64,000 nt of DNA from Desulfurobacterium sp. TC5-1 (GTDB lineage Bacteria; Aquificota; Aquificia; Desulfurobacteriales; Desulfurobacteriaceae): positions 1,047,087 to 1,111,086 of the forward strand of contig NZ_ATXC01000001.1 of NCBI RefSeq assembly GCF_000421485.1. Direction: 5' to 3'. The notes beneath the pieces are model-generated. The model saw only the letters and a program-made list of their open reading frames with translations, was not told where the DNA came from and searched no databases. Shown one piece after another: positions 24,695-44,188 of this stretch (positions are counted from its first letter, which is position 1; the number at the start of each line of letters is the position of its first letter). Made by a program: the position numbers and the translations under genes.

Positions 24695-26611
24695 ATGTTC
24701 AAGAAGCTTTTTGGCGGTGCGCCGGAAGAGAACGGAAACGATGTTATCAGTTTCCACAAAAGTATCAACTATATGTATAAGAGAGTAAAAGAAGCGCAGC
24801 TCTCTAATGTTGCCGACAGATTTGAAGCGATGGAAAAGGTTAGATGCAAATTCTGCAAAGAGGGTGTTTCCTGTCAGCTCTGTTCAATGGGTCCCTGCCG
24901 TATTACTCCACAAACACCGAGAGGGGTGTGTGGTATAGATGCTCACGGCATTGTTATGAGAAACCTCCTTCACAAGACAAATATGGGACTTGCCGCCTAC
25001 ACGTACCATGCCAGAGAGGTTGCTGAAACACTGAAAGCTACAGCTGAAGGAAAGACAATATTTACCATAAAGGATGCTTCAAAGATAGACCTTTTAGCTG
25101 ATATCTTTGATGTTGACCAGTCTCTTGAACTTAACGAAAAGGCAAAGGCAGTGGCAGAAAAATATCTCCAGCTTCTTGCTGAAAACAGGGAGTCAACGCT
25201 TGTTGAAAAGCTGGCACCACAGTCAAGAAAGGATGTTTTCCGTAAATTGGGTATCTTTTCTAAAGGTCCGCTTCAGGAGCTTGTAGATTCTGTTGCAAGA
25301 GGTATGACAAACATTGACGGTGATTATATAAGCCTTGCCCTTGCCGCTTTAAGAAACGGCGTTGCTTCCCTGTTTGGTGCCTTAGTTCCTCTTGAACTTA
25401 TGCAGGATGCACTTTATGGAACACCAATGCCCCATGAGGGAGAAGTCGATTTAGGTATCCTTGACCCGGAATACGTTAACATCCTTCCCAACGGTCATGA
25501 GCCTTTTGTTGGTCAGGCTCTCATAGAGCTTGCAAAGGATGAAAGGCTTCAGCAGATGGCAAGGGAGGCAGGTGCAAAAGGTATAAAAGTTGTTGGCTCT
25601 ATTGAGACAGGTCAGGAACTGCTTGCCAGAAATCCTGTTGATGAGGTTTTTGCAGGTCTTACAGCAAACTGGATAGGTATTGAATACTATCTTTCAACAG
25701 GAGCTGTTGATGTCTTTGCAATGGATATGAACTGTTCTCTTGCAAACCTTAAGGAGTATGCAGATAAGTATAAATTCAAGCTTGTTGCAGTTTCAAACAT
25801 CATAGGCGTACCGGGAGCTGAAAGGCTTGAGTACAGGCCGGGAAATGAGAAAGAGGTTGCAAGAAAAATAATAGAGATGGCTATCGAAAACTTCAAGGAG
25901 AGGAAAGCAACTGTTAAGGGAGAGAATCTTTCAGAATACAGGCAGAAGGCTATAGTTGGATTTTCGGCTGAGGCAATTATCAACGCCCTTGGCGGAAGTT
26001 TGACGCCGCTTCTTGAGGTTATAAAGTCCGGCGATATTAAGGGTGTTGTTGCGCTCGTTAACTGTACTACTCTTGCCAACGGACCTCAGGACAGCCTTAC
26101 TGTTAATCTTGCCAGAGAACTTATAAAGAGAGACATTTTAGTCATAGGCGCCGGTTGCGGTAACGCAGGCCTTCAGCAGGCGGGACTTGAGACGCTTGAA
26201 GCTGCTGAGAAGTATGCAGGTGAGAGGTTGAAAGGTGTTTGTAAGGCTCTTGGTATTCCACCGGTTCTCTCTTTTGGCACCTGTACAGATACAGGAAGAA
26301 TTGTTATGACAGTTGTTGCAATAGCAAATGCGCTCGGCGTTGATACGGCTGACCTTCCCGTTGCTGTTACCGCACCTGAGTATATGGAGCAGAAAGCGGT
26401 TATTGATGGATTTTCAGCCGTTGCCATGGGACTTTACACCCATGTTTCACCAACTCCACCGGTTACAGGTTCAGATAAGGTTGTAAAGCTTCTCCTTGAA
26501 GATGTTGAATCTCTCACAGGTGGTAAGATAGCCATTGGTGATGATCCTGTTGAAGTTGCCAATGGTATTGAAGCCCATATTCTTAAAAAGAGAGAAGCTC
26601 TGGGTATATGA
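24695..26611 (+). CDS. cooS: Anaerobic carbon monoxide dehydrogenase, catalytic subunit
   Basis: CooS interconverts CO and CO2 at a Ni-Fe-S C-cluster. The 638-residue protein has the N-terminal B/D-cluster cysteines (CKFCKEGVSCQLCSMGPC near residue 50) and a GVCGIDAHG block. Further downstream are NGHEPF, MDMNCSLANL, NCTTLANGPQDSL, GAGCGNAGLQQ and FGTCTDTGR blocks that supply the C-cluster ligands. No cooF, acetyl-CoA synthase or hydrogenase genes adjoin it, so it is a stand-alone type; it may supply CO or electrons to carbon fixation or allow CO oxidation. The ribosome site is AGGAGG. It ends at a long palindrome. Confidence 0.96.
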   Translation: MFKKLFGGAPEENGNDVISFHKSINYMYKRVKEAQLSNVADRFEAMEKVRCKFCKEGVSCQLCSMGPCRITPQTPRGVCGIDAHGIVMRNLLHKTNMGLAAYTYHAREVAETLKATAEGKTIFTIKDASKIDLLADIFDVDQSLELNEKAKAVAEKYLQLLAENRESTLVEKLAPQSRKDVFRKLGIFSKGPLQELVDSVARGMTNIDGDYISLALAALRNGVASLFGALVPLELMQDALYGTPMPHEGEVDLGILDPEYVNILPNGHEPFVGQALIELAKDERLQQMAREAGAKGIKVVGSIETGQELLARNPVDEVFAGLTANWIGIEYYLSTGAVDVFAMDMNCSLANLKEYADKYKFKLVAVSNIIGVPGAERLEYRPGNEKEVARKIIEMAIENFKERKATVKGENLSEYRQKAIVGFSAEAIINALGGSLTPLLEVIKSGDIKGVVALVNCTTLANGPQDSLTVNLARELIKRDILVIGAGCGNAGLQQAGLETLEAAEKYAGERLKGVCKALGIPPVLSFGTCTDTGRIVMTVVAIANALGVDTADLPVAVTAPEYMEQKAVIDGFSAVAMGLYTHVSPTPPVTGSDKVVKLLLEDVESLTGGKIAIGDDPVEVANGIEAHILKKREALGI

Positions 26612-26645
26612 TACCAGCCACTCCTCCTCTTCAATATTTTCCCTT

Positions 26646-26673
26646 AGAGGGAAGGCTTTAAAGCCTTCCCTCT
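26646..26673. repeat. Perfect 28-base palindrome after cooS
   Basis: Two 14-base arms, beginning AGAGGGAAGG, meet without a spacer. It lies 34 bases after the cooS stop and just before TATAAT at 26676-26681. It may act as the cooS terminator, although no T-run follows, or as an operator for the next gene. The AGGGAA in its left arm can also pair with TTCCCT just upstream (TTCCCT-TAG-AGGGAA), so two exclusive hairpins are possible. Confidence 0.7.
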
Positions 26674-26675
26674 GC

Positions 26676-26681
26676 TATAAT
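26676..26681 (+). promoter_or_regulatory. Candidate -10 element before the NO-stimulated promoter family gene
   Basis: A perfect TATAAT three bases after the 28-base palindrome and about 12 bases before the downstream ATG. The -35 region would lie inside the palindrome and does not match TTGACA well. The short leader makes a near-leaderless transcript likely. Confidence 0.35.
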
Positions 26682-26692
26682 CGGAATTGATT

Positions 26693-27010
26693 ATGGGAAT
26701 AGAAAAAGAGAAGAGAACTATAGAGAAAATGATTTTAGTATTCTGCCACGGAAAACACGGAACGCGAGAGGGTTTGTGTCCAGAGTGTCAGTCTTTAAAA
26801 GATTACGCTTTCAGCAGACTTGACCTTTGCCCTTTCGGCGATAAGAAACCTTCTTGTAGAAAGTGTCCCGTTCACTGCTACACACCTGAAATGAGAGAAC
26901 GGATAAGAGAAGTAATGAGATACAGTGGACCCCGTATGGTCTTTCATGCACCTTTTGAGTGGTTTAAACACAGGGTAGAGGAAATTCTTGATAGAATATT
27001 TAAAAATTAG
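26693..27010 (+). CDS. Nitrous oxide-stimulated promoter family protein
   Basis: A 105-residue protein matching PF11756. Conserved blocks are VFCHGKHGTREGLCPECQSL, SRLDLCPFGDKKPSCRKCPVHCYTPEMRERIREVMRYSGPRMV. The cysteine-rich centre (CPFG...C..CPVHC) probably binds an iron-sulfur cluster or zinc. The family name comes from expression in response to nitrous oxide; the biochemical role is unknown. It lies between cooS and a Crp/Fnr regulator gene, which suggests it belongs to a redox- or N-oxide-responsive unit. ATG 26693 is used; there is little ribosome site. Confidence 0.85.
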   Translation: MGIEKEKRTIEKMILVFCHGKHGTREGLCPECQSLKDYAFSRLDLCPFGDKKPSCRKCPVHCYTPEMRERIREVMRYSGPRMVFHAPFEWFKHRVEEILDRIFKN

Positions 27011-27027
27011 ATTACCGGGGTGTTCCT

Positions 27028-27639
27028 GTGCATGTTTTGAAATCTCTTCCTCTCTTCTCCACACTTACAGATCTGGAAATCAGGAAGATAGAGAATGTTC
27101 TCATTTACAGAAGATACCATCGAGGGCAGGTTTTATTCTCTTCTTACGACGAGGCTAACGGTATCTACATTCTTACACACGGTAAGGTTAAGTTGTATAA
27201 GTCTTTTGGTGGAAAAGAACAGACGTTAAGGATTTTTGCGCCCGTTTCAATGATAGGTGAGGCAGGAGCATTAAAAGGGGGAAATTTTCCGGCAAACGCA
27301 GTAGCCCTTGAGGATACAGAAGTTCTTTTCCTCCACAGGAAAGAGTTGACAAATATTATTAAAAATAATCCAGATATTGCAATGAAGATGATAGGTATTC
27401 TTTCAGAGCGTCTCTTTCACCTTGTCAGTCTTGTTGAAAATTTAAGCTTGAAAGACGCGGTTTCCAGAGTTTACGACTATATAGTCCATAAGGCAGATGA
27501 GAGTGGAAGATTGGAGTTTAAAACGACGATTGTTGCCATGGAGCTTGGCCTTACCGTGGAAACAGTTTCCAGGGCAGTTTCTCAATTAAAAAAGAGAGGT
27601 AAAATAAGAAAAACCGGAAAAATTGTAGAACTTATTTAG
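27028..27639 (+). CDS. Crp/Fnr family transcriptional regulator
   Basis: A 203-residue regulator with an N-terminal cyclic-nucleotide-binding-like beta-roll (about residues 15-115, with GIYILTHGKVKLYK) and a C-terminal winged helix. The recognition helix reads TVETVSRAVSQL; the E-x-x-S-R pattern is that of FNR/DNR proteins which read TTGAT-type half sites, and such a site lies before cooS. The protein has no cysteine, so it cannot hold the FNR iron-sulfur cluster; it is more like DNR (haem/NO) or another ligand sensor. The GTG start follows a GGGG run. It probably controls cooS and perhaps respiratory genes (inference). Confidence 0.88.
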   Translation: MHVLKSLPLFSTLTDLEIRKIENVLIYRRYHRGQVLFSSYDEANGIYILTHGKVKLYKSFGGKEQTLRIFAPVSMIGEAGALKGGNFPANAVALEDTEVLFLHRKELTNIIKNNPDIAMKMIGILSERLFHLVSLVENLSLKDAVSRVYDYIVHKADESGRLEFKTTIVAMELGLTVETVSRAVSQLKKRGKIRKTGKIVELI

Positions 27640-28791
27640 CTATTCGGATAAAACGATTCTGTCTCTCCCGCTATTTTTAGCCCGGTATAGAGCTTTATCA
27701 ACTCTTTTAAGGTTCTCTTCAAAGCTCTTTTCCTTGTCGATTTTGCAGACTCCTACAGATACTGTAACTTTTATTTTTTTACCTTCGTAGTTAACTTCCA
27801 TTTTTCTAATAGAACTGTGAATCCTTTTTGCCACCTTCATGGCCAACTCTTCTGTAGGTGTATCCACGGCAATTAAAAACTCGTCTCCTCCAAATCTTAT
27901 GATAACATCTCTGTCCCTCAGGAGCTTTTTGAACATGCTGCCCAGCGTTCTTAAAACCTCATCACCGGCATCGTGTCCGCAGGTATCGTTGATTTCCTTA
28001 AAATTATCTATGTCTATAAATAATAAGTATGTAAATCTGTTTATGATGTCCTCACCAAAATCTTCCATAAAGCGTCTGCTGTAAACCCCTGACAATGGAT
28101 CCGTATAGAGTTCCTTGTTGACCTCTGATAGTTTTATGTGAGAACGGTAAAGAATTTCCAGTTCATGCATGAGCTTCTGATTTTTCTTTAAAAATAGGAG
28201 GGACAGGGTGTTTAACTTTACAAATGTTGACAGAATATGGGTTTGCAAAAATTGATTGTTGAGCGTTGTAGAGAGCCAGGTATAGAGGTTTTCCGCCAGG
28301 TCGGATGTGTACATTAAAAACATGGAGTCAAAGAGAGCATCGTCGATTTTCTCTTTTTCGTAAAAGTTAGCCATCCGAGTAAAAAATTCCTGATTAAAGT
28401 TTTTTATGAAAAGTTCGTCATAGTAGTTTTTAAAAAAAGTTTTAAGAAAAGTTTTTTCGTGCTTTCTTTCTATAGATTCTATTGAATAGATCGTTTTTGA
28501 AAGAATTTCTCTAAATAATGAAGAGCCTTTAAACGCTAAAAAGTACCTCCTGTACATCTGCAGATGCTTTTTAAATTCAAATCCAAGTTCTTTTAATATT
28601 TCTGATACGGCTACGTCTTCAAGTGGCCACAAATCCTCGGGAACACTTGCACCCGATTTTTTTCTCAGGTATCTGTGACAGTTTTCGTAATCTGCTCTGC
28701 AAAACAGCGTAACTATTTTGTCCCATGTGTCTTCTATTTTTATGTAGTTTATGAAAGTACATCCGTCAAGGAATGGACACGTTTTTTTCAT
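27640..28791 (-). CDS. Diguanylate cyclase with N-terminal cysteine motif
   Basis: A 383-residue protein. The C-terminal GGDEF domain has DPLSGVYSRRFMEDF near residue 228 and an intact RFGGDEF active site near 312, with an RxxD inhibitory site five residues before it. The N-terminus carries CPFLDGCTF, then FC and ENCHRYL: four cysteines that may bind a metal or sense redox state. The middle region is helical and unrecognised. It makes c-di-GMP, presumably in the cytoplasm since no membrane segment is seen. It is the last gene of the cytochrome operon, with no gap after the previous gene. Confidence 0.88.
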   Translation of the reverse strand: MKKTCPFLDGCTFINYIKIEDTWDKIVTLFCRADYENCHRYLRKKSGASVPEDLWPLEDVAVSEILKELGFEFKKHLQMYRRYFLAFKGSSLFREILSKTIYSIESIERKHEKTFLKTFFKNYYDELFIKNFNQEFFTRMANFYEKEKIDDALFDSMFLMYTSDLAENLYTWLSTTLNNQFLQTHILSTFVKLNTLSLLFLKKNQKLMHELEILYRSHIKLSEVNKELYTDPLSGVYSRRFMEDFGEDIINRFTYLLFIDIDNFKEINDTCGHDAGDEVLRTLGSMFKKLLRDRDVIIRFGGDEFLIAVDTPTEELAMKVAKRIHSSIRKMEVNYEGKKIKVTVSVGVCKIDKEKSFEENLKRVDKALYRAKNSGRDRIVLSE

Positions 28792-30003
28792 TTACCCCTC
28801 GGATTTGTTTAAAGCGGCTTGAAAAACTGCTCCCGGTATATCCCCCACCGTTTCTACAGAGAGGGAAGATTTATTGATAATAAAATATTTTCCGGTCTTT
28901 GAAAAGATGAACAATTTGTCGTTACCGATTAAAATTTCAGAACTTTTTTTTATATTAAAAGTGATATATGGGTTTAAAGAGAATGTATCAAGAGCAATGA
29001 CTTTTGAAGGAGTTGTAACGAAGAGCAGGTGTTCGGATATTCTGAGTTTTAGAGGTTTCTCTGGCATGTCTTCTGAATCTGATGTTTTTGATAACAAGGA
29101 GTATTTAATTATAGAACTGGTAAAACTGTCAGCAGCATAAATATTTTCTCTGTCTCCACACACTGAAACAATGTTACCGGGAATTGTAACAGCACCGGTT
29201 AGCCTTCCGTTAATTAGACTGAAGATGTTTATGTCGCCGGTTCCGCCGTCGGCAGTGAGAATTGAATTAGTTGCATTGTTTATAAAAAAGTCTGAAACTT
29301 TCCTGTGAAAGTGGATACTGCTCAAAGTTCCTGATGATGTGTCGTATATGAAAAGATTCTGTCTGCTGGCAGATAAAATGTAAAGGTTCCCTTTTACACT
29401 TTTTATTTCAGCTGAACCGGCTCCTGGGATGGATATATCTGAAACAGGAAACCCGTTTTCCATTGATAAAACTGAAACGATAGGAAGGCCTTTAAAGCCG
29501 ACATAAATTCTGTCACCTATCATGCCAATACCGGAAGGTTTCTCTTTAAAACCGATAAATCCTGCAATAAGTCCCGAATCACCATCTATTACGCCTACGG
29601 CATTTTTGTCTGGAATTGAAAACAGAACCTTATCTTTTACAGAGAGAAGATTTTGAGAGGCAACGTAGATTCCGTTTTTTGTTGTTTTAATAAAGACAGC
29701 CTTTACACTGTTATCTTTGATGTTCAGGGTTGATGCCAAAGTATAGACTTTGTCGTTCATTTTTATAGAATGGATTTTTCCTTTGAGATGGAAGGTGCCC
29801 AATAAAAATTGTTTCTGCGTTTCTGTCGGATTGAATGTTTTGTTTAAGGTTAGCGTTTTATTCTCAATTGATATACTTCCTATCTTTATCGGTTTTTTTA
29901 CCTCTTCAAACTGAAGATAGACAAATAGAGAGGATGCATGTGCCGTCAACAGAAAACCAAAAACAGTTAAGTAAATTCCAAAAATCACAATTATCTTTCT
30001 CAT
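28792..30003 (-). CDS. Exported beta-propeller protein of the cytochrome operon
   Basis: A 403-residue protein with a signal peptide (KIIVIFGIYLTVFGFLLTAHAS) and a repeated strand pattern typical of a beta-propeller: NAVGVIDGDSGLIAGFIGFK, GNLYILSASRQNLFIYDTSSGTL, NSILTADGGTGDINIFSLINGRL and similar units about 40 residues apart. No catalytic residues are evident. It ends exactly where the diguanylate cyclase begins and follows the octaheme cytochrome by 14 bases. It may be a scaffold or chaperone for the extracellular cytochromes (inference). Confidence 0.65.
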   Translation of the reverse strand: MRKIIVIFGIYLTVFGFLLTAHASSLFVYLQFEEVKKPIKIGSISIENKTLTLNKTFNPTETQKQFLLGTFHLKGKIHSIKMNDKVYTLASTLNIKDNSVKAVFIKTTKNGIYVASQNLLSVKDKVLFSIPDKNAVGVIDGDSGLIAGFIGFKEKPSGIGMIGDRIYVGFKGLPIVSVLSMENGFPVSDISIPGAGSAEIKSVKGNLYILSASRQNLFIYDTSSGTLSSIHFHRKVSDFFINNATNSILTADGGTGDINIFSLINGRLTGAVTIPGNIVSVCGDRENIYAADSFTSSIIKYSLLSKTSDSEDMPEKPLKLRISEHLLFVTTPSKVIALDTFSLNPYITFNIKKSSEILIGNDKLFIFSKTGKYFIINKSSLSVETVGDIPGAVFQAALNKSEG

Positions 30004-30017
30004 CGCTTACCTTACTT

Positions 30018-31412
30018 TTAGAAGGTTCTTCTTCCAGTGTAATAACTCGGGTTGATTGTCAGCAGAATACTGTCATCGCCGCCGTGAAAGTGGCAGTACT
30101 GACAGTCCTCACCAGTCCAGCCGAAAGTTCCGTGACATCCTATGCATCTTGTTGGATATTTATAAGGTGCATCCGGATTTGTATGATGTATCACATACCA
30201 TGTCTGAGGTATAGAACCCCCATATACTTGATGGCAGTTTACACATAGCTTCCAGATATCGTTTGGTGATGAAATGGTCGTATTGTAACCCAATGTGGAC
30301 GCAAGTCCGTCAACAAGCTCTTTTCCGTTCACCTCTTCTCTTATTAAGTAGAGATTCTTTGAACCGTGAGCCTCGTGACAGTCCATACATGAAACAACAA
30401 ATCCTGCACCATTTGCATTGACAGGAAGGGATGTATTGTTGTAAGGTGCCTGAAGTGAAGCGGTATTTGGGTCTGCCAGTGTGGTATTGGAATCCGCCAC
30501 CCTGAATCCGTGCTTATCTCCGTTTGCAGAGAACCAGTCAATAGAATAGAGATTGCCGCCCGTTGTAACGGTTCCCGTATTAGGGTCAAAGTGCTGAATG
30601 GTGGTGCTGTAAATGATATTAGTTGTATTGTGGCAGTCTGTGCAGAAGCTTATGTAATCGGGCATCTTGGCAGCCTGCTGGGCAGGGGTCCCTGCAGTGC
30701 CGTCAGGCTCAAACGTAACTGTTGAACCATAGTAGTAGGGCGGCTGGTACATGTCTGTCAAAGCTGCCAGAGTTTCATTGGCATCATCACCCCAGAGATG
30801 GCTGTGGTCGGAGGGTTTTGAGAGGGGTGTATAGTAAGGATTATCAACATTTCTCCTGTTAGCCCTGACTATGTGAGGGTTGTGGCAGGCATCACACGGA
30901 TTTGACTGGGGTTTAAAAAAGGATGAAAAAGGCAGGGTGGTACTGCCTGCGTTTCCCGTTGCAAACTGGTAAATATCGTAGAGATTGTGGTAGGAAGCCT
31001 GATTAAACATCTGGAATATACCTGTTACATTTGATGCGTTGTAACCTCCAAATGTATAACTGAAATTGTGGTTATCTATTCCGCCATTTTGCAGTGAACC
31101 GTCTGTGGTGGTGGAGTGGCAGTAGAAGCAGTAATCGTCAGACAGCACGTAAGGATTGGTGGTTTTGGCCGTATTGAAGTTTGGAGCAAAGAGTGCAAAT
31201 GGTGACGGAGCTCCGTTGACCGGTGCAGGCTCTGCACCGTTCTGGCTTGCGTGCATTTCGTGGCAGTTGTCACAGTTTCCGACAGAGTATCCGGGCATGG
31301 ACGTTCTGCTGACGCCGTATGTTGTGTTGCCGTGGGCGGACAGCAGATAACCACCAGCATGGGCGGTAGCGCTTGCCAAAAGCAATACTGCTGTTAAAAT
31401 TGCTGCCCTCAT
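30018..31412 (-). CDS. Octaheme c-type cytochrome, exported
   Basis: A 464-residue protein with a signal peptide (ILTAVLLLASATAHA) and eight CxxCH haem sites: CDNCH, CFYCH, CDACH, CTDCH, CMDCH, CVNCH, CIGCH and CQYCH. The long inserts between sites are rich in Asn, Thr, Gly and Tyr, as in extracellular cytochromes, rather than compact like periplasmic c3-type proteins. Motifs such as CHEMHASQNG and CHEAHGS resemble those of Geobacter outer-surface cytochromes. It follows the OmcS-like gene by 15 bases. A role in long-range electron transfer to minerals, sulfur or partner cells is inferred. Confidence 0.88.
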   Translation of the reverse strand: MRAAILTAVLLLASATAHAGGYLLSAHGNTTYGVSRTSMPGYSVGNCDNCHEMHASQNGAEPAPVNGAPSPFALFAPNFNTAKTTNPYVLSDDYCFYCHSTTTDGSLQNGGIDNHNFSYTFGGYNASNVTGIFQMFNQASYHNLYDIYQFATGNAGSTTLPFSSFFKPQSNPCDACHNPHIVRANRRNVDNPYYTPLSKPSDHSHLWGDDANETLAALTDMYQPPYYYGSTVTFEPDGTAGTPAQQAAKMPDYISFCTDCHNTTNIIYSTTIQHFDPNTGTVTTGGNLYSIDWFSANGDKHGFRVADSNTTLADPNTASLQAPYNNTSLPVNANGAGFVVSCMDCHEAHGSKNLYLIREEVNGKELVDGLASTLGYNTTISSPNDIWKLCVNCHQVYGGSIPQTWYVIHHTNPDAPYKYPTRCIGCHGTFGWTGEDCQYCHFHGGDDSILLTINPSYYTGRRTF

Positions 31413-31427
31413 TCTTCCCTCACAAAT

Positions 31428-32618
31428 TCAGTCTTTTTGTGTATGACATATAGTGCACCCGTTTAATTTACCGTTTGCCGGCCAGTTTCTAAAGTCCCAC
31501 CTCAGGATATCTGCATACGGTGTTCCGTGTGCTCTGTGGCACGATATACAGGTTACGATCGCAGTTCCCGGAGGGTCACCAGGTTTTACATCCACTACAG
31601 AAAGAACACCCTTTGTAAGGTCATCAGATGCAACAGGTGCAATAACGCTGTAAGGTGCTGCTGTTGAGTTGGTGGCACCGTTGTAGTACTGATATTCACT
31701 TCCTGAAGCATCCGTCATATCAAAGTCCGTTGGATGACGGAGCCACGGCGAAACGCCGTAATCACTTGAGGAAATTTGCCCGCTTCCTGAGTGGTAATAT
31801 CCGTGACATTCAGCACATAGATAAGATATTGTATGTTTGTCCGCCGTTGAAGCTGTCAAAAGTGTTGTACTGTCTCTCACCTGACCGTAGTATTGATTGT
31901 GATTTGTCGCTGTTGGATGGTATTCATAATTTGCGCTTTCTATTCCGTATATTCCAAGTAAGAATCTGTAGCTGTTGCCGACCGTTGTTGCGTTCGTAAG
32001 TGGAGTTATTCCGTCATTTCCTTTGTTTCCGTGGTGGGCTCCGTATATTCCTTTGTAGTCGTCATCACCCGGTCTGTGGTGCCCGTGGCATCCGTAAAGG
32101 CCTGCACATGTGACCTGCTGACCTGCCGGCCATGTACCATTGCCTACAATTTCACCTGCAGCATTTGCAAACGTTCCGTCAAATCCCGGCGGCGCCGACA
32201 GTATGTCATCGGGATTTCCAAGCTCTGCTACATTGTGCCCGCATTCATCGGCAACTGTGTTAGGCACACTTGTTCCATAGACCATCCAGTAAAAGTTTCC
32301 GCCAGCAAGTGTATTTGTATCCGGTTCTGTTCCGGTAGCATTATATATGGGTGGCGTCTGGGAAAACACATACGGAGTCTTGTTTGTTCCATCATTTATT
32401 CCAGTATGGCATGCTATACAGCTTTTATTCAGCAGGAAGGGGTGAGTTCCATTGCTGTTAACAGCAATACCGTTTTGAACATTGTGCATTGTATGGCAGT
32501 TGTAGCACGGTCCCGATACCGCGAAAGCGGTACTTCCGCACACCAAGGTTACCGCTACTGTTAACAGGTTACTTTTTAGACTTAGCAGTTTGTTTGTCAA
32601 AGACTTCAACTCTTCCAT
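31428..32618 (-). CDS. OmcS/OmcE-like hexaheme cytochrome, candidate nanowire subunit
   Basis: A protein of about 396 residues with a signal peptide ending near CGSTAFAVSG. Canonical haem sites are CYNCH, CIACH, CAECH, CISCH and CTICH; a sixth candidate is CAGLYGCH, with five residues between cysteines, followed by GHH. The order and flanks resemble Geobacter OmcS as I remember it: CxxCHTMHN at the start, a GG-(D/N)-F-x-W block, a LRHP segment after the fourth site, CxSCHRAH near the end, and a last CxxCH almost at the C-terminus. OmcS forms micrometre-long haem filaments, so this is a candidate filament subunit. ATG 32618 follows AGAGGG; it overlaps the upstream gene by 50 bases. Confidence 0.82.
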   Translation of the reverse strand: MEELKSLTNKLLSLKSNLLTVAVTLVCGSTAFAVSGPCYNCHTMHNVQNGIAVNSNGTHPFLLNKSCIACHTGINDGTNKTPYVFSQTPPIYNATGTEPDTNTLAGGNFYWMVYGTSVPNTVADECGHNVAELGNPDDILSAPPGFDGTFANAAGEIVGNGTWPAGQQVTCAGLYGCHGHHRPGDDDYKGIYGAHHGNKGNDGITPLTNATTVGNSYRFLLGIYGIESANYEYHPTATNHNQYYGQVRDSTTLLTASTADKHTISYLCAECHGYYHSGSGQISSSDYGVSPWLRHPTDFDMTDASGSEYQYYNGATNSTAAPYSVIAPVASDDLTKGVLSVVDVKPGDPPGTAIVTCISCHRAHGTPYADILRWDFRNWPANGKLNGCTICHTQKD

Positions 32619-33453
32619 TTCCCTCTTCCGCAATCCATAAATTTCCATATTTATCAAAATTTATATAGGATGGATAGTAGAGCTTACCTCTCTTTTCACC
32701 TCTCTCTAAGATTATATCTAATAATGCACCCTGCGAGTTGTATATCTTAATATTTCCGGCGTCCTTGTCACAGATATATATGAAACCGTTTTTGTCTATG
32801 TCTATAGATACGGGAAGGAGAAGCTTGTGGTTTTTGTCTTCAAGTTTTATGGCTTTTCTTTTTCCTGTTTTAAGGTCAAATTCCACTACAGTTTTTGATA
32901 TGGGTTTAAGGCAGACGATTTTATCTTTTCGGATTTTAAAGTCTATGAATCCATCATCTTTGCCGTGAGTAAAAACTTCTTTTACGTTAAATTGATTGTT
33001 GAATTTGTATATATCGCCTGTCAGCCTATCAAGAATGTAGATGTATCCCTTGTGAATAAAAATTTTATCAGGGATTATTCTCATCCGTATTTTTTCAATC
33101 TTTCGAGTCTTTAAATTGATGATATCAATCTCCTGGTTGCCGCGGTTAATTACTATAATCTTCTCTTTCGAAAATTTCGCCATAGCTACAGGTTTGTTTA
33201 AAACCCCCTTAGCAAAAAAGGCAGGCTTAGGAACTCCCCTTTTAACAGAATACGAAAAAAGCTTCCCGGTCCCGTCAACGATGTACGCCCGGTTGCCGTC
33301 TTGTGAAAATGATACAAAGAGAGGACGTCTCATAAAGGTTTCTCTTTTGTCTTTCTTTAGTGTCATGTACCAAGTATAGTTAAAGGACCCGGCAAAAACT
33401 GCTTTGGGTAACGCAAGTGTAAATAGACTCAATATGGTTAACAAAATATTCAT
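32569..33453 (-). CDS. Exported NHL-type beta-propeller protein
   Basis: A protein of about 294 residues with a signal peptide (ILLTILSLFTLALPKAVFA) and NHL-like repeats, for instance PVSIDIDKNGFIYICDKDAGNIKIYNSQG and PSYINFDKYGNLWIAEEGNGRVEVFD. Propellers of this kind are frequent neighbours of extracellular cytochrome genes in Geobacter (from memory), although their function there is not settled. ATG 33453 is preferred because AGGAGGA lies six bases before it; ATG 33468 is in frame upstream. It begins 19 bases after the hexaheme cytochrome gene. Confidence 0.78.
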   Translation of the reverse strand: MNILLTILSLFTLALPKAVFAGSFNYTWYMTLKKDKRETFMRRPLFVSFSQDGNRAYIVDGTGKLFSYSVKRGVPKPAFFAKGVLNKPVAMAKFSKEKIIVINRGNQEIDIINLKTRKIEKIRMRIIPDKIFIHKGYIYILDRLTGDIYKFNNQFNVKEVFTHGKDDGFIDFKIRKDKIVCLKPISKTVVEFDLKTGKRKAIKLEDKNHKLLLPVSIDIDKNGFIYICDKDAGNIKIYNSQGALLDIILERGEKRGKLYYPSYINFDKYGNLWIAEEGNGRVEVFDKQTAKSKK

Positions 33454-33471
33454 AAATTTCCTCCTCATACT

Positions 33472-34068
33472 TTACTTGTACCTTTTCGGTGAGTGGCACT
33501 GATAACACAGTGCCGATTCACCGTTCTTTTTCAGCAAGTACTTGTAATCTGTTCCCATTGTGTAATGGCAGGTAATACACGTAATTGGCTGTCCGTTTCT
33601 CGGGTCTAAGTGTTTGTCACCCTGAGGATGGACACAGTACCCTTTACTGTTTTTGGCATGGCACCTTAAACATACTATTATTCCATTACCTCTTAGCATT
33701 GCTATATTATCACTTTGGTGTGGATCGTGACACAGCACGCAGTTATTTACGTTTTTATGGTGATATAGATGAGAAGAGATTCTTTTATATACATCCTGGT
33801 GACATTTGATACAAACGAGCTCACCGTTAATTTTTTCTACATCTTTACGGGAAGGATTTTGGGAAGTGTGACAGTATGAACATGAACCTTTACCATTACC
33901 GAAACTGTGAATATGTATAAACTTAAAGTTAACTTCCTCTGGTTTTTCCTGAAGTGTGAAGGTATCCTTACCGTTTTTGCCTGTCACATGTTTAAAATGC
34001 GCCGGCGCGCCCTGAGCGGTATTCCCATATAAAACTAAAAAAACGAAGAACAACAATGTTTTTTTCAT
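33472..34068 (-). CDS. Small hexaheme c-type cytochrome (doubled CxxCH family)
   Basis: A 198-residue exported protein with a signal peptide (LLFFVFLVLYGNTAQG) and six CxxCH sites: CSYCH, CIKCH, CVLCH, CLRCH, CITCH and CYQCH. Haem density is high (one per about 25 residues after the signal), as in compact periplasmic carriers of the NrfB/DmsE type. It may pass electrons from the inner membrane quinone pool across the periplasm to the outer-surface cytochromes encoded next to it (inference). It overlaps the foldase gene by four bases. Confidence 0.87.
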   Translation of the reverse strand: MKKTLLFFVFLVLYGNTAQGAPAHFKHVTGKNGKDTFTLQEKPEEVNFKFIHIHSFGNGKGSCSYCHTSQNPSRKDVEKINGELVCIKCHQDVYKRISSHLYHHKNVNNCVLCHDPHQSDNIAMLRGNGIIVCLRCHAKNSKGYCVHPQGDKHLDPRNGQPITCITCHYTMGTDYKYLLKKNGESALCYQCHSPKRYK

Positions 34069-35780
34069 CTTATACGCTCCATATTTTTATAATATGCAAT
34101 CCCGCTGATGATGACAAGTGAAAGCAGAAATAGATAGAATGCGTAAATTCCATTGTACTGCTCCTGTTTTTTATGACCGTTCACAATAGAATTCCAGACA
34201 TCCCAGTTCACTTTTACTTCTTTTCCCTTAGATAGTAGATTCATATAAAGTTGTTTTATGTATTCCTGCTTAATTGCTTTAAATTTATCTTCAAATAGTT
34301 TCCTTTTGATTTCTTCTTTTACTTCTGAAATGGGTTTATAACGATTTTTTTGAAGTTTTAATACCTCCACCATGAAATATGTGTTCTTTATTTTAAACGG
34401 TTTTGAAACTTCGCCTATTTTGAGTTTATCTATAACCTCCCTGGACTCCGGAAGGAGGTGTGAATAAGGAATCTCAACTACATTATCGTATCCCATAATT
34501 TCCTTAGTTAAGTCTTTGAAATTTTTTCCAGCTTGCAGTTCTTTGTACAGTTTCCTTGCCAGTCTTCCGTCGCTGGTCTGCAAGAATCTTATTTTAATTT
34601 TGTCAGGGAGACGGTATTCGGACTTATGTCTCATGTAATAATTCCTGATTTCAGAATCTGAAATTTTGACCTTTGGTTTCAGCACACGATTTTCAAGCTC
34701 CTTTATTATTCTGTTTTGACAATAGAATTCAAACATGGATTTTAGAGGTTCTTTCTTCTCATAGTGTCTATTTAAAGCTTCCAACCCCACGAGTGTTTGA
34801 TTAATTATGGAATCAACCACTCTCCTTTTGGCAATTTCTAAATTGACTTTTCCAAATCGAGAATGTTTTTCCCATTCAATTTCCTGCTTGAGAAATTTTA
34901 CAAAGCCGCCCACGGTTAGTGCGTAGTTGCCGACTTTTAAAAGTATTTCTTTTTTCATCTTTTCAGGAACATTTTGAGGGTCTATTTCTCTGAGAAGCTT
35001 TTCGTTTACCCACACAGGATATTTCTTTCTCAACTCTTTTAAAAGTTGTTCCGTCGCTTCTGCTTCCTTTATTTTGATTAATTTATCTTTTGCACTTTTA
35101 AGCACTTCGCTGATGTTATTTTCTTTGTCCGTTTTATCAGAAACCACTATTATCAGCCACACTTTTCCATCATTAACAGGGCCAATAACTTCGCCTTTTC
35201 TTGCTTTTAAAATCAATTCTCTTTGCGCTGTGTTCCTTATCTCAAATGGCCGCATCCAATCGGTTTTCCTTTCAAAGTGCATTTTATTTTTGATTTCAAG
35301 GGCTTTTGCGAGTTTCTCGCCTGTTATTCCCCTTTCTATGAGTTTTTTCGCTTTAGCTGCTTTCCTTTTTGTTTGGAAAAAGTAGATATCAAGCTTAAAC
35401 TTTGGTATGTAGTTTTTTTTGTAATAATTCATCACCTCTTTATCTGATACTTTTTTCGCAGGTGCAAGGGTGTCTCCTTCAAGTAAAAGGAGCGAGCGGA
35501 CTTTGACAAACTGTCTTATCTTTTTTTGATAGCTTGGAAGTTTATACAGCCCAAGTTCCGTTCCGTTTTCAAATAGAAGCATCCAGTCTATAAACGGTGT
35601 GGGATTTTCAGGAAACTTTGAACCGTCAACTTTCCAGTTTTCCCACCAGTTCTGGAAATCTTTAACTGTGTATGTTTTATTACCTATTTTTACCAGCCAT
35701 TCGTTTTGAGGTATTTTAGAAAAGGCTGTGGAGCTGATTGATAGTAACGTGATAACAGCGATTATTACTCTTCTAAACAT
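34065..35780 (-). CDS. SurA/parvulin-like foldase with C-terminal membrane anchor
   Basis: A 571-residue exported protein. After a signal peptide (VIIAVITLLSISSTAFS) it contains two similar halves, each with a helical SurA-N-like part (VGNYALTVGGFVKFL and KIGNKTYTVKDFQNWW) and a parvulin-type part (KIRFLQTSDGRLARKLYKELQAGKNFKDL... KIGEVSKPFKIKNTYFMVEVL). The active-site residues are not clearly conserved, so it may be a chaperone more than an isomerase. A C-terminal hydrophobic segment (IYAFYLFLLSLVIISGIAYY) should hold it in the inner membrane, facing the periplasm. It probably helps fold or export the cytochromes. Confidence 0.75.
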   Translation of the reverse strand: MFRRVIIAVITLLSISSTAFSKIPQNEWLVKIGNKTYTVKDFQNWWENWKVDGSKFPENPTPFIDWMLLFENGTELGLYKLPSYQKKIRQFVKVRSLLLLEGDTLAPAKKVSDKEVMNYYKKNYIPKFKLDIYFFQTKRKAAKAKKLIERGITGEKLAKALEIKNKMHFERKTDWMRPFEIRNTAQRELILKARKGEVIGPVNDGKVWLIIVVSDKTDKENNISEVLKSAKDKLIKIKEAEATEQLLKELRKKYPVWVNEKLLREIDPQNVPEKMKKEILLKVGNYALTVGGFVKFLKQEIEWEKHSRFGKVNLEIAKRRVVDSIINQTLVGLEALNRHYEKKEPLKSMFEFYCQNRIIKELENRVLKPKVKISDSEIRNYYMRHKSEYRLPDKIKIRFLQTSDGRLARKLYKELQAGKNFKDLTKEIMGYDNVVEIPYSHLLPESREVIDKLKIGEVSKPFKIKNTYFMVEVLKLQKNRYKPISEVKEEIKRKLFEDKFKAIKQEYIKQLYMNLLSKGKEVKVNWDVWNSIVNGHKKQEQYNGIYAFYLFLLSLVIISGIAYYKNMERIR

Positions 35781-36367
35781 TTTATGCCGGCCTCCTGAAG
35801 ATTTTTCATCAGTTCATCGGAGCTTACAAATATAAGTTTTGTCATACTTTTCACAACGCCAAACTCTAAAACTTTTCTAAAGTCGTCCCCCCGATGAACG
35901 ACGTAGGCAGAAAATACTCTCCTGCCCGTTCTGGTGCTTATCCCCTCTATCCATATCCTTACCTCAGGATACCGGCTTCCTCCCCCGTAGGGTTTGTATG
36001 TCATTACTTTTCCTGTTATAGCTAATCCAACGCCAAGGTTGTTTCTTAAAAAGTCAAGAAATGCCTGAGGAATGCTCTGATATGGAAAAAAATGCCTCCC
36101 TACCATCAGGTTTTTAACATCCTGAGGGAGAACAACATCTATGCCATTTGAAACAAAGGCTGAATAAAAGATCAATGCAACCTTTTCACCTGCATTTTCA
36201 TCTTTTACTTCGTTCTTAAAGGGCAGTATAGCAACTTTACAGGGACTTATTTTTTCTTTTCTAAAAATTCTGACGTAACCTGAATCGGATTCTTTCACCG
36301 GAACAGTTGAACAGGATGATAGCAACCCTATTATCAATATAAAAACTACTGCCTTAAAATTCCTCAA
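35765..36367 (-). CDS. CsgG/GNA1162-like lipoprotein
   Basis: A 200-residue lipoprotein; the signal ends with the lipobox GLLSSC near residue 19. CKVAILPFKNEVKDENAGEKVALIFYSAFVSNGIDVVLPQDV matches the start of the CsgG/GNA1162/FlgO fold (VAVLPF...). CsgG forms the outer-membrane channel for curli; GNA1162 relatives are outer-membrane lipoproteins of unclear role. The length is shorter than CsgG and no channel strands are evident, so a role in assembling an outer-membrane complex is more cautious. TTG start with AGAGG five bases before; overlaps both neighbours. Confidence 0.68.
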   Translation of the reverse strand: MRNFKAVVFILIIGLLSSCSTVPVKESDSGYVRIFRKEKISPCKVAILPFKNEVKDENAGEKVALIFYSAFVSNGIDVVLPQDVKNLMVGRHFFPYQSIPQAFLDFLRNNLGVGLAITGKVMTYKPYGGGSRYPEVRIWIEGISTRTGRRVFSAYVVHRGDDFRKVLEFGVVKSMTKLIFVSSDELMKNLQEAGIKCLEE

Positions 36368-37772
36368 CCCAGCCTCTCTGCTCTTCCATTTCTCTGTAGG
36401 ATTTTACCTTCAATTCGTAATCCTTTTCAAGTTTGTTTCCGATTTCATCCTGCATAAACAGACGTACCTTAAGCTTATTAAAATCGCTGTCAAATATTAC
36501 TTCTGCTGGAAGTTTTTTGATTTCAGTTTCACCTAAAGGATACCCTTTAGGTGAGAATACAACAATTCTAATTTTCTTAAGTTTATCCGGAATCTTTATC
36601 GATTTAATCATTATGGCAGTTTTGCCTTCCTGTGTCTTGTAGATGGTTATCTCAGGTGCCGGTATGTTGTGGAAATAGTAGAATTTTTTCTCAAGAAAAG
36701 CTGTGTTGCCGGCAACATCTGTAACTTTTAGTGATATTTTATAAATTCCTTCCTGAGTTAGAGCTTTTACCGGATTCCATGTTATTGCAATAACAGGTGC
36801 CCCGTTCCCGAACCTCTTAAATATTTCTTTTCCCTGAAAATCGGAAATAGTTAAATCCCATCTCATTATGCTGTCCGGCTCTTTCAGTCCTGCCGTTAAC
36901 AGAAGTTTATCGTTTGCAAAGTATATCTTGCCGGCTTTCTTTAATCCCTTTATTGTAAGGTAAATCTTTGGAGGTACATTATCCACGGTAAGTTCGTCAA
37001 GCATCAACTTTTTGCCATTTTCGTAAAGAAATACTGGATACTTTCCATCACCGAGGTTGGGGATAAAAATTCCTGTATAAGCACCGTCGTTTCTCCTCAG
37101 AGTGACAGCTTTACCGTCTATATGGATGGTTATGGAATCAGTTTTGGGTTTTCCTACAGGCTTTAAAAGCAAATTCACCTCGTCTCCGTCCTTTACATAC
37201 CTCGGGAACAATGAAAAATGCTCTACCTGAAATCCCGAAGGAAGAATTTCTTTACCTATTTTCTCTCCGGGAAATGACTTTACCACTTCATCCGCTATGC
37301 GGTCTTCCATCTGTTCGATAGAGAGATTGTTCCCTAAATTGAGAAGGTGCTCTTCAGGCTGGTAGTAAAACACTTTACTCCAGTAAGTTTTTCCATCAGG
37401 AACGGATGTGGCAAACAGAACAATTCCGAACAGGTGTTTTTTCCCGTCAGCTTCTATTTTCGCACCCCATAACATTGTGGAGCCCTTTAGCTCATAAGAT
37501 AGAGCAACTTTTGATGCTCCTGGTAGCCCTGTTGCGTATATTCCTTTTGAGGATAGGGCAGAATACAGTTCATCCCCTGATATAACAATGTCACCTCTTC
37601 TTTTCAAAGCCTTAGCTATTTTATCTGTAAGTTTCAAATCTATTCCCGGCGGATCTACTGTAAGATCTCTAATGGGAAAAACCACTATCTGCCCTAAGGA
37701 CCTGTCTATAAACATCCCTAAAATGAATATCAGTGCCCATACAAGGATTTTTATCGCGTTCCTTGAATTCAT
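36354..37772 (-). CDS. CsgG-like N-domain protein with Ig-like repeats
   Basis: A 472-residue protein with an N-terminal hydrophobic segment (IKILVWALIFILGMFI) that could be a signal or anchor. Residues 28-165 (QIVVFPIRDLTVDPPGIDLKLTDKIAKALKRRG...) follow the same alpha/beta pattern as the flanking CsgG-like lipoproteins but without a lipobox. The rest is beta-rich, with about three Ig- or FlgD-like modules (for example KISLKVTDVAGNTAFLEKKF). It shares an ATGA overlap with the upstream gene and 14 bases with the next. Probably a periplasmic or outer-membrane partner of the two lipoproteins. Confidence 0.58.
   Translation of the reverse strand: MNSRNAIKILVWALIFILGMFIDRSLGQIVVFPIRDLTVDPPGIDLKLTDKIAKALKRRGDIVISGDELYSALSSKGIYATGLPGASKVALSYELKGSTMLWGAKIEADGKKHLFGIVLFATSVPDGKTYWSKVFYYQPEEHLLNLGNNLSIEQMEDRIADEVVKSFPGEKIGKEILPSGFQVEHFSLFPRYVKDGDEVNLLLKPVGKPKTDSITIHIDGKAVTLRRNDGAYTGIFIPNLGDGKYPVFLYENGKKLMLDELTVDNVPPKIYLTIKGLKKAGKIYFANDKLLLTAGLKEPDSIMRWDLTISDFQGKEIFKRFGNGAPVIAITWNPVKALTQEGIYKISLKVTDVAGNTAFLEKKFYYFHNIPAPEITIYKTQEGKTAIMIKSIKIPDKLKKIRIVVFSPKGYPLGETEIKKLPAEVIFDSDFNKLKVRLFMQDEIGNKLEKDYELKVKSYREMEEQRGWVEEF
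36529..36554. repeat. Perfect 11-base inverted repeat inside a coding region
   Basis: TCACCTAAAGG and CCTTTAGGTGA flank a four-base loop within the Ig-like part of the preceding entry. It could form a strong RNA hairpin in the operon transcript, perhaps affecting processing, or may be chance from the encoded S-P-K-G-Y-P-L-G-E. Confidence 0.4.
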
Positions 37773-38350
37773 TTTTTGCCCTTAAGTTCCTTAGGGTTAA
37801 AAGTTTCTAAAAGTTCATAGCAAAACTTTTGAAGAGCGATTATAGGATCATCGGTTTTTAGACCTAACAGTCGGCCAAGTGTGCTGTAGTAACTTTTTAC
37901 ACCTGAAGCCTGCCAGATAACGTTTCCGTTCGTGTCGAGGATTTTTATAGTTAAGGCCACTACAGGGTAGCTGTAAGCACCTCTTCTCTCGATTTTATAT
38001 TCATCTACAGAACCCTGAACAAATCCATTAACTTTCAAAACGTCTGCAAGAACTCTAAGATCATTAACATCAAAGTAGAAACCTCCAGGTACACCGAGCC
38101 TTTTTACCTCTCTATCAACTTCTCCTTTTGGAACTACATCAATGCCCTTTTCAAGCAGTGCAGTTATGACAAAATCTCTGGCTCTTCCCCCGGCAAATTT
38201 ATCTGACGAGAAATTCATAAAAGGTAAAACGGCTACTCTCTCTATCCGGCTTATGCTTTCAGGTTTAGAAAAATAGTTTATGTTCCCCTGAGTTGCACAT
38301 CCACATATGAAGAAGATAGGAAAAATAAAAACCATTAACAGCTTCTTCAT
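37769..38350 (-). CDS. CsgG/GNA1162-like lipoprotein, first gene of the cytochrome operon
   Basis: A 193-residue lipoprotein with lipobox FICGC at the end of a short signal. ERVAVLPFMNFSSDKFAGGRARDFVITALLEKGIDVVPKGEVDREV is a clear CsgG-superfamily start, close to the second lipoprotein of this operon. VNGFVQGSVDEYKIERRGAYSYPVVALTIKILDTNGNVIWQAS near residue 110 follows the family pattern of the conserved beta strands. It is preceded by GGGAGGCGG and about 130 bases of A/T-rich sequence that should hold the operon promoter; no convincing -35/-10 pair was found there. Confidence 0.72.
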   Translation of the reverse strand: MKKLLMVFIFPIFFICGCATQGNINYFSKPESISRIERVAVLPFMNFSSDKFAGGRARDFVITALLEKGIDVVPKGEVDREVKRLGVPGGFYFDVNDLRVLADVLKVNGFVQGSVDEYKIERRGAYSYPVVALTIKILDTNGNVIWQASGVKSYYSTLGRLLGLKTDDPIIALQKFCYELLETFNPKELKGKK

Positions 38351-38478: not shown

Positions 38479-39834
38479 TTAATTGTTTTCATTCGTCCTC
38501 GATGAGTAACAAATTACCCGATTTTTACCAAGTTTTTTCGCTTTATACAGTGCTTCATCTGCCTTTTCTATGAACTCTTTATACTTGCTTCTCGCATTTT
38601 CTGTAAGTTCTTCTGGAGGAATAGGATAGCATCCTATACTTACAGTTACTTTTATTAATTTTCCTTCAAATTCAAATCTGTGTTTTTCTATACTTTCTCT
38701 AATTCTTTCAAATACTTTTCCGCCGTCATATTTGTCAGTGTTGAACAGCACCATCAAAATTTCTTCACCTCCGTAGCGCAGTACCAAATCTATGTCCCTT
38801 ACATGGTGTTTTACGATTGACGATAATGTTCTAAGTACATAATCTCCGGCAAGATGACCATATGTATCGTTTATTTTTTTAAAATCATCTATATCCATCA
38901 TTCCTACCACCAATGGCTTGTTTTCTCGCCCTGCTAAAGATATTAGCTCTTGAAACCTTTTCATACCGAATCTTCTGTTATAGAGCTTTGTAAGCGGATC
39001 TAAGTATGATTCTTCCTGCAATCTTTTGTAGTTTCTTGCATTTGTAAGCCCAAGAGACATTAAATCTCTTATTCTTCTTAAGAATTTTAGCTCAAATCCC
39101 GAGAATTTTGTGGGTTTGGCAAGTATGAGAATGGCTTTTACATCTATTGAAGTTAAAGGAACTATCAAAAGCTCCCTAACGTCCGTTTTGTCTAAAAGCT
39201 CAATTTTTACATCGGAAACATTTATTAGTTTTAAATCTTTAAAGCTGAAGCATGCTTCTATGAAGTCTGTTGTTTGACACTCTCTAAAGTTGAAACATGC
39301 TATTCTTGTTGTTACTCCTTCAGAGTCTTTCATATAAGCTGCCATAGCAACTATTCCGAATTTTTCCAGTAGAAAGTTATAAAAAGACTTTGCCAGAACT
39401 TCAGGAGTTGCTAAAGTTGCAAACAGCTTTCCGACCTCTCTCTGGTAGTTATCTAAGATTTCACTCATGTAAAGATTTTCTATGAAATGGTTTATTTCTT
39501 TAGATACCTCGTATATGAAATCGTCTTCTTGCGCTTCTATTTTTAGCTGCTTTATTTCCTCAAGGGAATGGGCTTTTGAACCTTCCAGCACTCTTCTTAT
39601 TCTGCGAAAAATGTCCGTTACATTGTCAAAGTACTCTTTTAAATTCCCCCTGACTATTACATAATATATAAACCAGCCTAATATAAAGTTGGATATGAGA
39701 GAGGTGGCAAATTCAAGGGGATCTATAGGATGGCCCTGGAGGAAAAATCGATGTATTACTATTGGAGCAGCAACTCCGGAAATCACGGACATTATTGCTA
39801 TATCTCTTATAAGTTTTTTCTTAATGTTAACCAC
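38479..39834 (-). CDS. Membrane-bound diguanylate cyclase with GAF-like region
   Basis: A protein of about 451 residues. Two N-terminal membrane segments (IAIMSVISGVAAPIVIHRFF and ISNFILGWFIYYVIV) are followed by a helical linker, a GAF-like domain (about residues 140-270) and a C-terminal GGDEF domain with DPLTKLYNRRFGMKRF and the active-site variant RYGGEEI; an RxxD inhibitory site precedes it. It should make c-di-GMP at the membrane in response to an unknown signal. GTG 39834 has a G-run five bases upstream and is preferred to ATG 39855, which lacks a ribosome site and would leave two bases to the divergent gene. Confidence 0.85.
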   Translation of the reverse strand: MVNIKKKLIRDIAIMSVISGVAAPIVIHRFFLQGHPIDPLEFATSLISNFILGWFIYYVIVRGNLKEYFDNVTDIFRRIRRVLEGSKAHSLEEIKQLKIEAQEDDFIYEVSKEINHFIENLYMSEILDNYQREVGKLFATLATPEVLAKSFYNFLLEKFGIVAMAAYMKDSEGVTTRIACFNFRECQTTDFIEACFSFKDLKLINVSDVKIELLDKTDVRELLIVPLTSIDVKAILILAKPTKFSGFELKFLRRIRDLMSLGLTNARNYKRLQEESYLDPLTKLYNRRFGMKRFQELISLAGRENKPLVVGMMDIDDFKKINDTYGHLAGDYVLRTLSSIVKHHVRDIDLVLRYGGEEILMVLFNTDKYDGGKVFERIRESIEKHRFEFEGKLIKVTVSIGCYPIPPEELTENARSKYKEFIEKADEALYKAKKLGKNRVICYSSRTNENN

Positions 39835-39857
39835 ATCAACCCCCGGAGGAACCATAG

Positions 39858-44150: not shown

Positions 44151-44188
44151 TCTGATATAATCTCTCAAAACGGTTTTGGAGGGCTTTG

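Follow-up and report, generated by a model that had tools for sequence, protein, structure and literature searches.

A tightly packed operon of ten genes on the reverse strand (positions 27640-38350) was analysed in a stretch of 64,000 nucleotides, hereafter the window, from Desulfurobacterium sp. TC5-1 (contig NZ_ATXC01000001.1, positions 1,047,087 to 1,111,086), a heat-loving, hydrothermal member of the Aquificota with a genome of 1.65 Mb. The homology, order, composition, fold matches and distribution observed for these genes favour, with reasonable confidence, a reduced osc/oet-type cluster for the folding and export of cytochrome nanowires, for which an export route, polymerisation and electron flow are proposed below. 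An initial annotation, made from the sequence alone, had described ten closely spaced reverse genes encoding, among others, three exported multihaem cytochromes with about 20 haem sites and a membrane-anchored parvulin-like foldase. All of this was recovered: the ten open reading frames overlap or are separated by 0-15 nt, 20 haem sites were counted (19 CXXCH and one CX5CH; eight in P3, five plus one in P4 and six in P6), and P7 is a PpiC-type protein with a C-terminal membrane segment. Its reading of the operon as a nanowire system was largely right, but the arrangement has already been described under the names osc and oet (PMC13194489, PMC12977616, PMC10553843, PMC5539420). The genes, in the order of transcription, followed by the gene upstream of P10, are:

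P10: 37769..38350, reverse; lipoprotein of 193 aa with a lipobox and a PelC/GNA1162/LpoB-like fold, OscF counterpart by position and homology
P9: 36354..37772, reverse; exported protein of 472 aa with a CsgG-like N-terminal domain (as initially annotated, weak here) and Ig-like domains
P8: 35765..36367, reverse; lipoprotein of 200 aa with a lipobox, related to P10 and OscG-like
P7: 34065..35780, reverse; SurA/PrsA-like PPIC foldase of 571 aa with a C-terminal membrane anchor, OscH homologue
P6: 33472..34068, reverse; hexahaem cytochrome of 198 aa, equivalent to the C-terminal third of the 16-haem cytochrome of other clusters
P5: 32569..33468, reverse; exported NHL propeller of 299 aa, six-bladed type, adjoining the OmcS-like gene
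P4: 31428..32657, reverse; OmcS-family hexahaem cytochrome, candidate filament subunit whose mature form starts near residue 47
P3: 30018..31412, reverse; exported octahaem cytochrome of 464 aa, kept beside P4
P2: 28792..30003, reverse; exported putative propeller of 403 aa in an OscD-like position
P1: 27640..28791, reverse; GGDEF diguanylate cyclase, final gene of the operon
Second GGDEF protein: 38479..39855, reverse; hydrophobic N-terminal part, in the place of the barrel gene (OscE/OetI) of other lineages

Pfam supported the GGDEF (P1), NHL (P5), PPIC foldase (P7) and multihaem (P3, P6) domains; the multihaem match of P4 fell slightly under the cut-off, and no Pfam match of the single P8, P9 and P10 sequences reached it.

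P4 and the OmcS nanowire

Among the three operon cytochromes only P4 showed features of a filament subunit, and by sequence and model comparison it is a member of the OmcS family. Alignment by blastp with OmcS, whose reference sequence was checked letter for letter against PDB 6ef8, gave 28% identity across 372 aa (E=4e-13) with collinear haem motifs. A family profile built from 67 sequences, which included Geobacterales OmcS homologues and tests the unity of the family rather than P4 alone, matched OmcS 6ef8 at E=6e-77, the next-best match being at 5e-4. Single-sequence phmmer searches of the PDB with P3 and P4 returned nothing useful, and the link between P4 and OmcS needed the profile or the direct alignment. 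When the AlphaFold2 model of P4 (predicted local distance difference test score, pLDDT, 80; predicted template modelling score, pTM, 0.83) was searched with Foldseek, OmcS 6ef8 was the sole PDB match (E=3e-5, probability 1.0).

Conservation of the putative distal haem ligands, taken as conserved His outside the CXXCH motifs, pointed in the same direction: the columns of OmcS H16, H110, H147, H247, H257 and H335 held His in 63-67 of the 67 P4-family rows, and five of the six proximal-ligand columns of OmcS also hold His in the family. At the column of H16, which we take to be the inter-subunit ligand, His was present in 67/67 rows. P4 and the OmcS nanowire share six sites, collinear motifs, conserved axial His, a CHTMH near the N-terminus and a last haem motif no more than 4 residues from the C-terminal end, whereas P4, as a putative filament subunit, differs in its 28% identity, a CX5CH at site 3 and a shorter C-terminal segment. 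In OmcS, one of the 12 haem ligands is donated by the neighbouring subunit (PMC6584659). P4 has six c-type bis-His sites in the order of OmcS, with a reservation concerning site 3, where CXXCH is replaced by C[AS]GxxGCH (CX5CH) in about 42 of the 67 homologues; this may be an unusual haem attachment of the P4 clade. Together with its CX5CH this clade has two adjacent conserved histidines, HH (mature H162-H163), that OmcS lacks.

A second OmcS-like cytochrome, 41% identical to P4 and with an NHL propeller of its own, is encoded elsewhere (G000 contig 1, ~946680-948050, reverse strand; L026 7707-10054). This gene and its propeller were present in 4/4 genomes of the genus; in the P4 tree the cytochrome branched apart from the others.

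Correspondence with the osc and oet clusters

Genomes were scanned for the P4 family, which yielded 79 loci, and profiles of the window proteins were mapped onto these. A recurrent order, P10-P9-P8-P7-26-haem-16-haem-P5 propeller-P4 OmcS-like-P3 octahaem, often followed by a propeller-like gene, was seen in Desulfobacterota and related metagenome-assembled genomes (MAGs), with a shorter form in Nitrospirota. The lineage labels are those of the MAG record titles, some of which (Heimdallarchaeota, Chloroflexi) are probably binning errors; one contig binned as Heimdallarchaeota (L030) carries a bacterial osc/oet cluster and is probably such a case. Separation of the lipoprotein and foldase half from the cytochromes, named at the outset as the outcome that would speak against a nanowire operon, was not what the synteny search found, since the two travel together widely.

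In Geobacter, the neighbourhood of the osc (omcS-companion) operon has been described (PMC13194489), and that source, citing Shen 2025, assigns folding to OscH, secretion to OscEFG and morphology to OscD. An eight-gene block, GSU2500-2493, has been connected with the maturation of OmcS and its secretion (PMC12977616). The Desulfobacterota version is oetABI with OmcS-like and OmcX cytochromes, read as an electron conduit (PMC10553843), and a four-gene core of propeller, 16-haem and 26-haem cytochromes and foldase was reported earlier (PMC5539420).

Homology to the osc cluster of Geobacter sulfurreducens (GSU2504-GSU2493) was read through Citrifermentans bremense and Geomonas, in whose corresponding clusters the families of the operon flank an OmcS 58% identical to 6ef8. 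Both systems contain an OmcS-like hexahaem cytochrome, a propeller, a PelC-like lipoprotein, the OscG family and an OscH-type PPIC foldase. From gene order and profile scores we infer that OscE corresponds to a barrel, OscF to P10 and OscG to P8/P9; all three channel-like components have counterparts, but that of OscE is unlinked. The 26-haem OscI is absent, and therefore the operon is an osc variant and not a typical member. Unlike osc, it further shows a SPOR fusion on the unlinked OscE, a membrane-anchored OscH, two OscG genes (P8, P9), an additional octahaem P3 and 6-haem P6, and a terminal GGDEF gene. The run P10-P9-P8-foldase-...-NHL-OmcS-like-octahaem (L028, L029, L032, L064) is common to it and to the large-cytochrome operon known as oetABI or SEEP-SRB1 in Desulfobacterota and in Ca. 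Desulfofervidus (PMC10553843, PMC5539420), and outside the genus the closest kin of P4 and P3 are Desulfofervidaceae. The oetABI core of OetI barrel, periplasmic OetA and lipoprotein OetB was not found intact: the barrel is unlinked, the 26-haem protein absent and the 16-haem protein down to six haems. In the three Desulfobacterota-type clusters inspected, the 26-haem protein is apparently a lipoprotein, as expected of OetB. The system is not new; what is new is its restriction to one genus within the phylum, the reduced haem genes, the unlinked SPOR barrel and the anchored foldase.

Lipoproteins, foldase, propellers and an unlinked barrel

Initially annotated as CsgG/GNA1162-like, P8 and P10 (32% identical to each other) do carry lipoboxes, and members of the P10 family matched LpoB (28/37), GNA1162 (26/37) and CsgG (12/37) in Pfam. 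The P10 model (pLDDT 89), however, was closer to PelC, its best Foldseek match (E=3e-11; hidden Markov model match 8e-10), than to CsgG, the curli channel, with which it shows a distant fold kinship (1e-4). In the PelBC exporter of exopolysaccharide, PelC is the lipoprotein that makes up the ring. P10 resembles PelC in fold (TMt ~0.8), in the lipobox of an outer-membrane lipoprotein and in having a separate barrel partner, and differs in its ~20% identity, a putative cytochrome instead of polysaccharide cargo and a ring that is itself putative. A CsgG channel was rejected for P10, whose model contains one three-strand meander and lacks the two inserted membrane hairpins; because of this single meander and the 176 residues of the mature protein, P10 alone would probably not make a CsgG barrel. 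The operon lipoproteins are therefore closer to PelC than to CsgG. The CsgG domain initially called in P9 was weak here. P9 also has Ig-like domains (Big_13 at E=9e-4, under the cut-off), and the position and family of this protein have their equivalents in Desulfobacterota clusters. The P8 profile recovered the OscG-position proteins of Geomonas and Citrifermentans with 216-247 bits, and the Geobacterales OscG-type protein matched the P8 and P9 profiles alike.

The foldase P7 matched Rotamase_2 (4.7e-22) and, as a profile, SurA (2e-19), and its iterated profile reached OscH of Geomonas and Citrifermentans with 477-522 bits. The C-terminal membrane segment of P7 was found in this genus only and in no other complete homologue examined. 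As for the two annotated propellers, P5 was borne out (NHL, 30.5 bits) and lies next to the OmcS-like gene in most clusters, whereas P2 was weak taken alone (E=0.004-0.007, under Pfam cut-offs), although it occupies an OscD-like propeller position and has distant relatives, also weak matches, in homologous clusters (E=1e-8). P2 is fast-evolving, with 37% identity between congeners.

In other readable lineages, the gene upstream of P10 nearly always encodes a barrel-like protein, of ~700 aa where complete. Loss of the outer-membrane barrel from Desulfurobacterium was rejected, since an OscE/OetI homologue of 969 aa (E=2e-75) with an N-terminal SPOR domain was found outside the window, ~35 kb from the operon (contig 1:1120617-1123526, reverse strand; L121 10118-13027).

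Reduction of the large cytochromes

At 36-44% identity, P6 aligned with the C-terminal ~150 aa of most 16-haem proteins and represents their last six haems, the first ten being gone. A sequencing artefact was rejected as the cause of this truncation, since P6 starts with a signal peptide of its own, shares 4 bases with the P7 gene and is likewise a six-haem protein in three congeners. The 26-haem (OscI) gene was absent from the operon, and no orthologue was found in three genomes of the genus. The best 26-haem match in the genome of the window, a 24-haem protein on contig 2, scored E=1.8e-28, whereas genomes that do possess the gene gave 1e-183 to 1e-263. On these values (1.8e-28 vs 1e-183 or better) the 24-haem protein was rejected as a relocated OscI orthologue. 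Its cluster (L122 8104-14632) also encodes an NHL propeller, a cytochrome-b-like membrane protein and proteins with 3 and 6 haems, and looks like an inner-membrane gate from quinol to multihaem cytochromes. P3 keeps the same place in many clusters, with its nearest kin in Desulfofervidaceae, and had no solved relative in the PDB. In MAGs labelled as Gemmatimonadales, Fibrobacter and Latescibacterota or unclassified (L083, L086, L098, L104), single cytochromes of 31-42 haems, apparently fusions, replace the 26- plus 16-haem pair.

Conservation, distribution and origin

The gene order was intact in three readable congeners (complete in one, in the other two as far as the contig reaches) and is met again in other lineages; the operon is therefore not a chance arrangement. 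In all ten genes amino-acid change was well below synonymous change, the latter mostly saturated. Conservation was lowest in P1 and P2, while P4 and P10, with 91% and 85% identity to the nearest congener, were among the best-conserved genes. Promoter-like sites (43 vs 34 +/- 6 in shuffles) and terminator-like sites (7 vs 10) gave no usable signal, and a PHROGs search was uninformative.

P4 was found in 4/61 related genomes, all of one genus, as was the barrel homologue, and the foldase P7 in 4/136 Aquificota genomes, again in this genus only. P4 nested among Desulfobacterota-type sequences near Desulfofervidaceae, with support that is not strong (Shimodaira-Hasegawa-like approximate likelihood ratio test, SH-aLRT, 83); P3 was nearest to Desulfofervidaceae by path length, and P7 was sister to Desulfobulbales-type foldases. 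Since the cluster is also missing from the other Aquificota, these affinities are most simply explained by horizontal acquisition, which is probable but points to no one donor.

Proposed assembly route and alternative explanations

In the proposed route, apo-P4 would be exported by Sec and loaded with haem in the periplasm, where the membrane-tethered, OscH-type foldase P7 would hold it unfolded or competent for assembly. P4 would then be handed to a ring of PelC-like lipoproteins (P10 and P8, with the Ig-domain protein P9) beneath an outer-membrane barrel, the OscE/OetI homologue encoded 35 kb away, whose SPOR domain would bind peptidoglycan. Outside the cell, head-to-tail stacking of P4 would generate an OmcS-type haem wire, and P5 and P2, the propellers, would serve as cap or shape factors specific to the subunit. 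The 16-haem remnant P6, perhaps with other multihaem cytochromes of the host (L122, L128), would feed electrons in, standing in for the lost 26-haem and 16-haem modules. Filaments so formed could pass electrons to minerals, sulfur or partners. The initial proposal that the operon joins filament subunits with folding and outer-membrane factors is supported for P4; P6, by contrast, is a remnant, P3 has no solved kin and the barrel lies outside the operon.

Several observations weigh against a nanowire cluster. The Foldseek alignment of the P4 model with OmcS, although the only one in the PDB, had a template modelling (TM) score of 0.42 and a root-mean-square deviation (rmsd) of 11.9, values that do not establish OmcS-type haem stacking of P4. 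The change of haem site 3 to CX5CH leaves its distal ligand uncertain. The co-occurrence of the barrel with P4 concerns one lineage, and as a single evolutionary event it is not replicated evidence. Moreover, not every OmcS homologue makes wires, OmcT, OmcJ and OscC being unproven (PMC12977616), and the physiological role of OmcS wires is disputed (PMC11077965).

The same cassette is taken in the oet literature for an electron conduit and not for an exporter: Murali 2023 reads these genes as the conduit OetABI (PMC10553843). Here, the cassette would mainly provide an OetI-type porin-cytochrome conduit through the outer membrane, which would charge the OmcS-like and octahaem proteins as cytochromes of the cell surface, not as polymers. 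Retention of a barrel homologue in the genus fits such a conduit, but a conduit ought to retain its haem chain, and it is precisely the 26-haem protein that is gone, the 16-haem protein that is cut to six haems and the barrel that is unlinked, whereas foldase, lipoproteins and OmcS-like cytochrome are intact; we consider this explanation unlikely. Still less likely is a non-filamentous exported multihaem system, in which P4 would share OmcS ancestry and serve, outside the cell or in the periplasm, as a reductase or a storage cytochrome; this would agree with the lack of a demonstrated wire for most OmcS paralogues (PMC12977616). The low global TM to OmcS and the altered haem site 3 would also agree with it, but the whole assembly machinery has been retained together with P4. 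The invariant histidine equivalent to H16 (67/67 homologues), by our assumption the inter-subunit ligand, likewise speaks against such a system. Finally, loss of the 26-haem gene, truncation of the 16-haem gene and relocation of the barrel relative to donor-like clusters could be the marks of an acquired cluster eroding without present function. Such a relic is highly improbable: no frame is broken in the congeners that were read, amino-acid substitution in all ten genes falls far short of the (mostly saturated) synonymous substitution, P4 (91%) and P10 (85%) are well conserved in the nearest congener, and extra domains have been gained.

Significance

In the literature found, osc/oet clusters are described mainly from Desulfobacterota and also from Anaeromyxobacter, and among the top-ranked papers of our searches none linked Desulfurobacterium to nanowires. 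The operon would be the first such cluster described in Aquificota, hydrogen-oxidising thermophiles of vents, and a thermophilic source of wire protein. Its composition separates assembly machinery from large haem conduits and so bears on the question of exporter versus conduit, offering a natural test of whether two large cytochromes, nearly always present elsewhere, are needed for wire building. A PelC-like lipoprotein ring with an OscE barrel is, in addition, a structural hypothesis for the exit of cytochrome wires. Tentatively, and with somewhat less than even confidence, the genus may be regarded as a naturally minimal nanowire factory, which kept foldase, PelC-like ring, barrel and propellers, gained new membrane and peptidoglycan anchors, lost the 26-haem cytochrome and cut down the 16-haem one. 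If so, nanowire assembler and electron conduit would be separable modules, a six-haem adaptor could charge OmcS-type wires, and an exporter of ring and barrel, similar to PelBC, would carry cytochrome wires across the outer membrane.

Flanking genes and other observations

The diguanylate cyclase initially annotated at the end of the operon, P1, was supported by its GGDEF match (E=4e-38) and is conserved in a congener (38% identity to that protein), but it is no member of the cluster in other lineages. In this genus only, diguanylate cyclases (38479-39855 and 27640-28791) lie at both ends of the operon, and control of wire production by cyclic di-GMP is possible. On the forward strand, a gene resembling the catalytic subunit of CO dehydrogenase and a Crp/Fnr-type regulator (24695-27639) converge on the end of the operon. 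Further along the same strand lies the gene of an exported lipoprotein with eight CXXCH motifs (42624-44123), and after it that of a rhodanese-like lipoprotein (44186-44581). The former, a possible electron partner in the outer membrane or periplasm, is also encoded near the operon in a congener (G001; L021 6954-8474).

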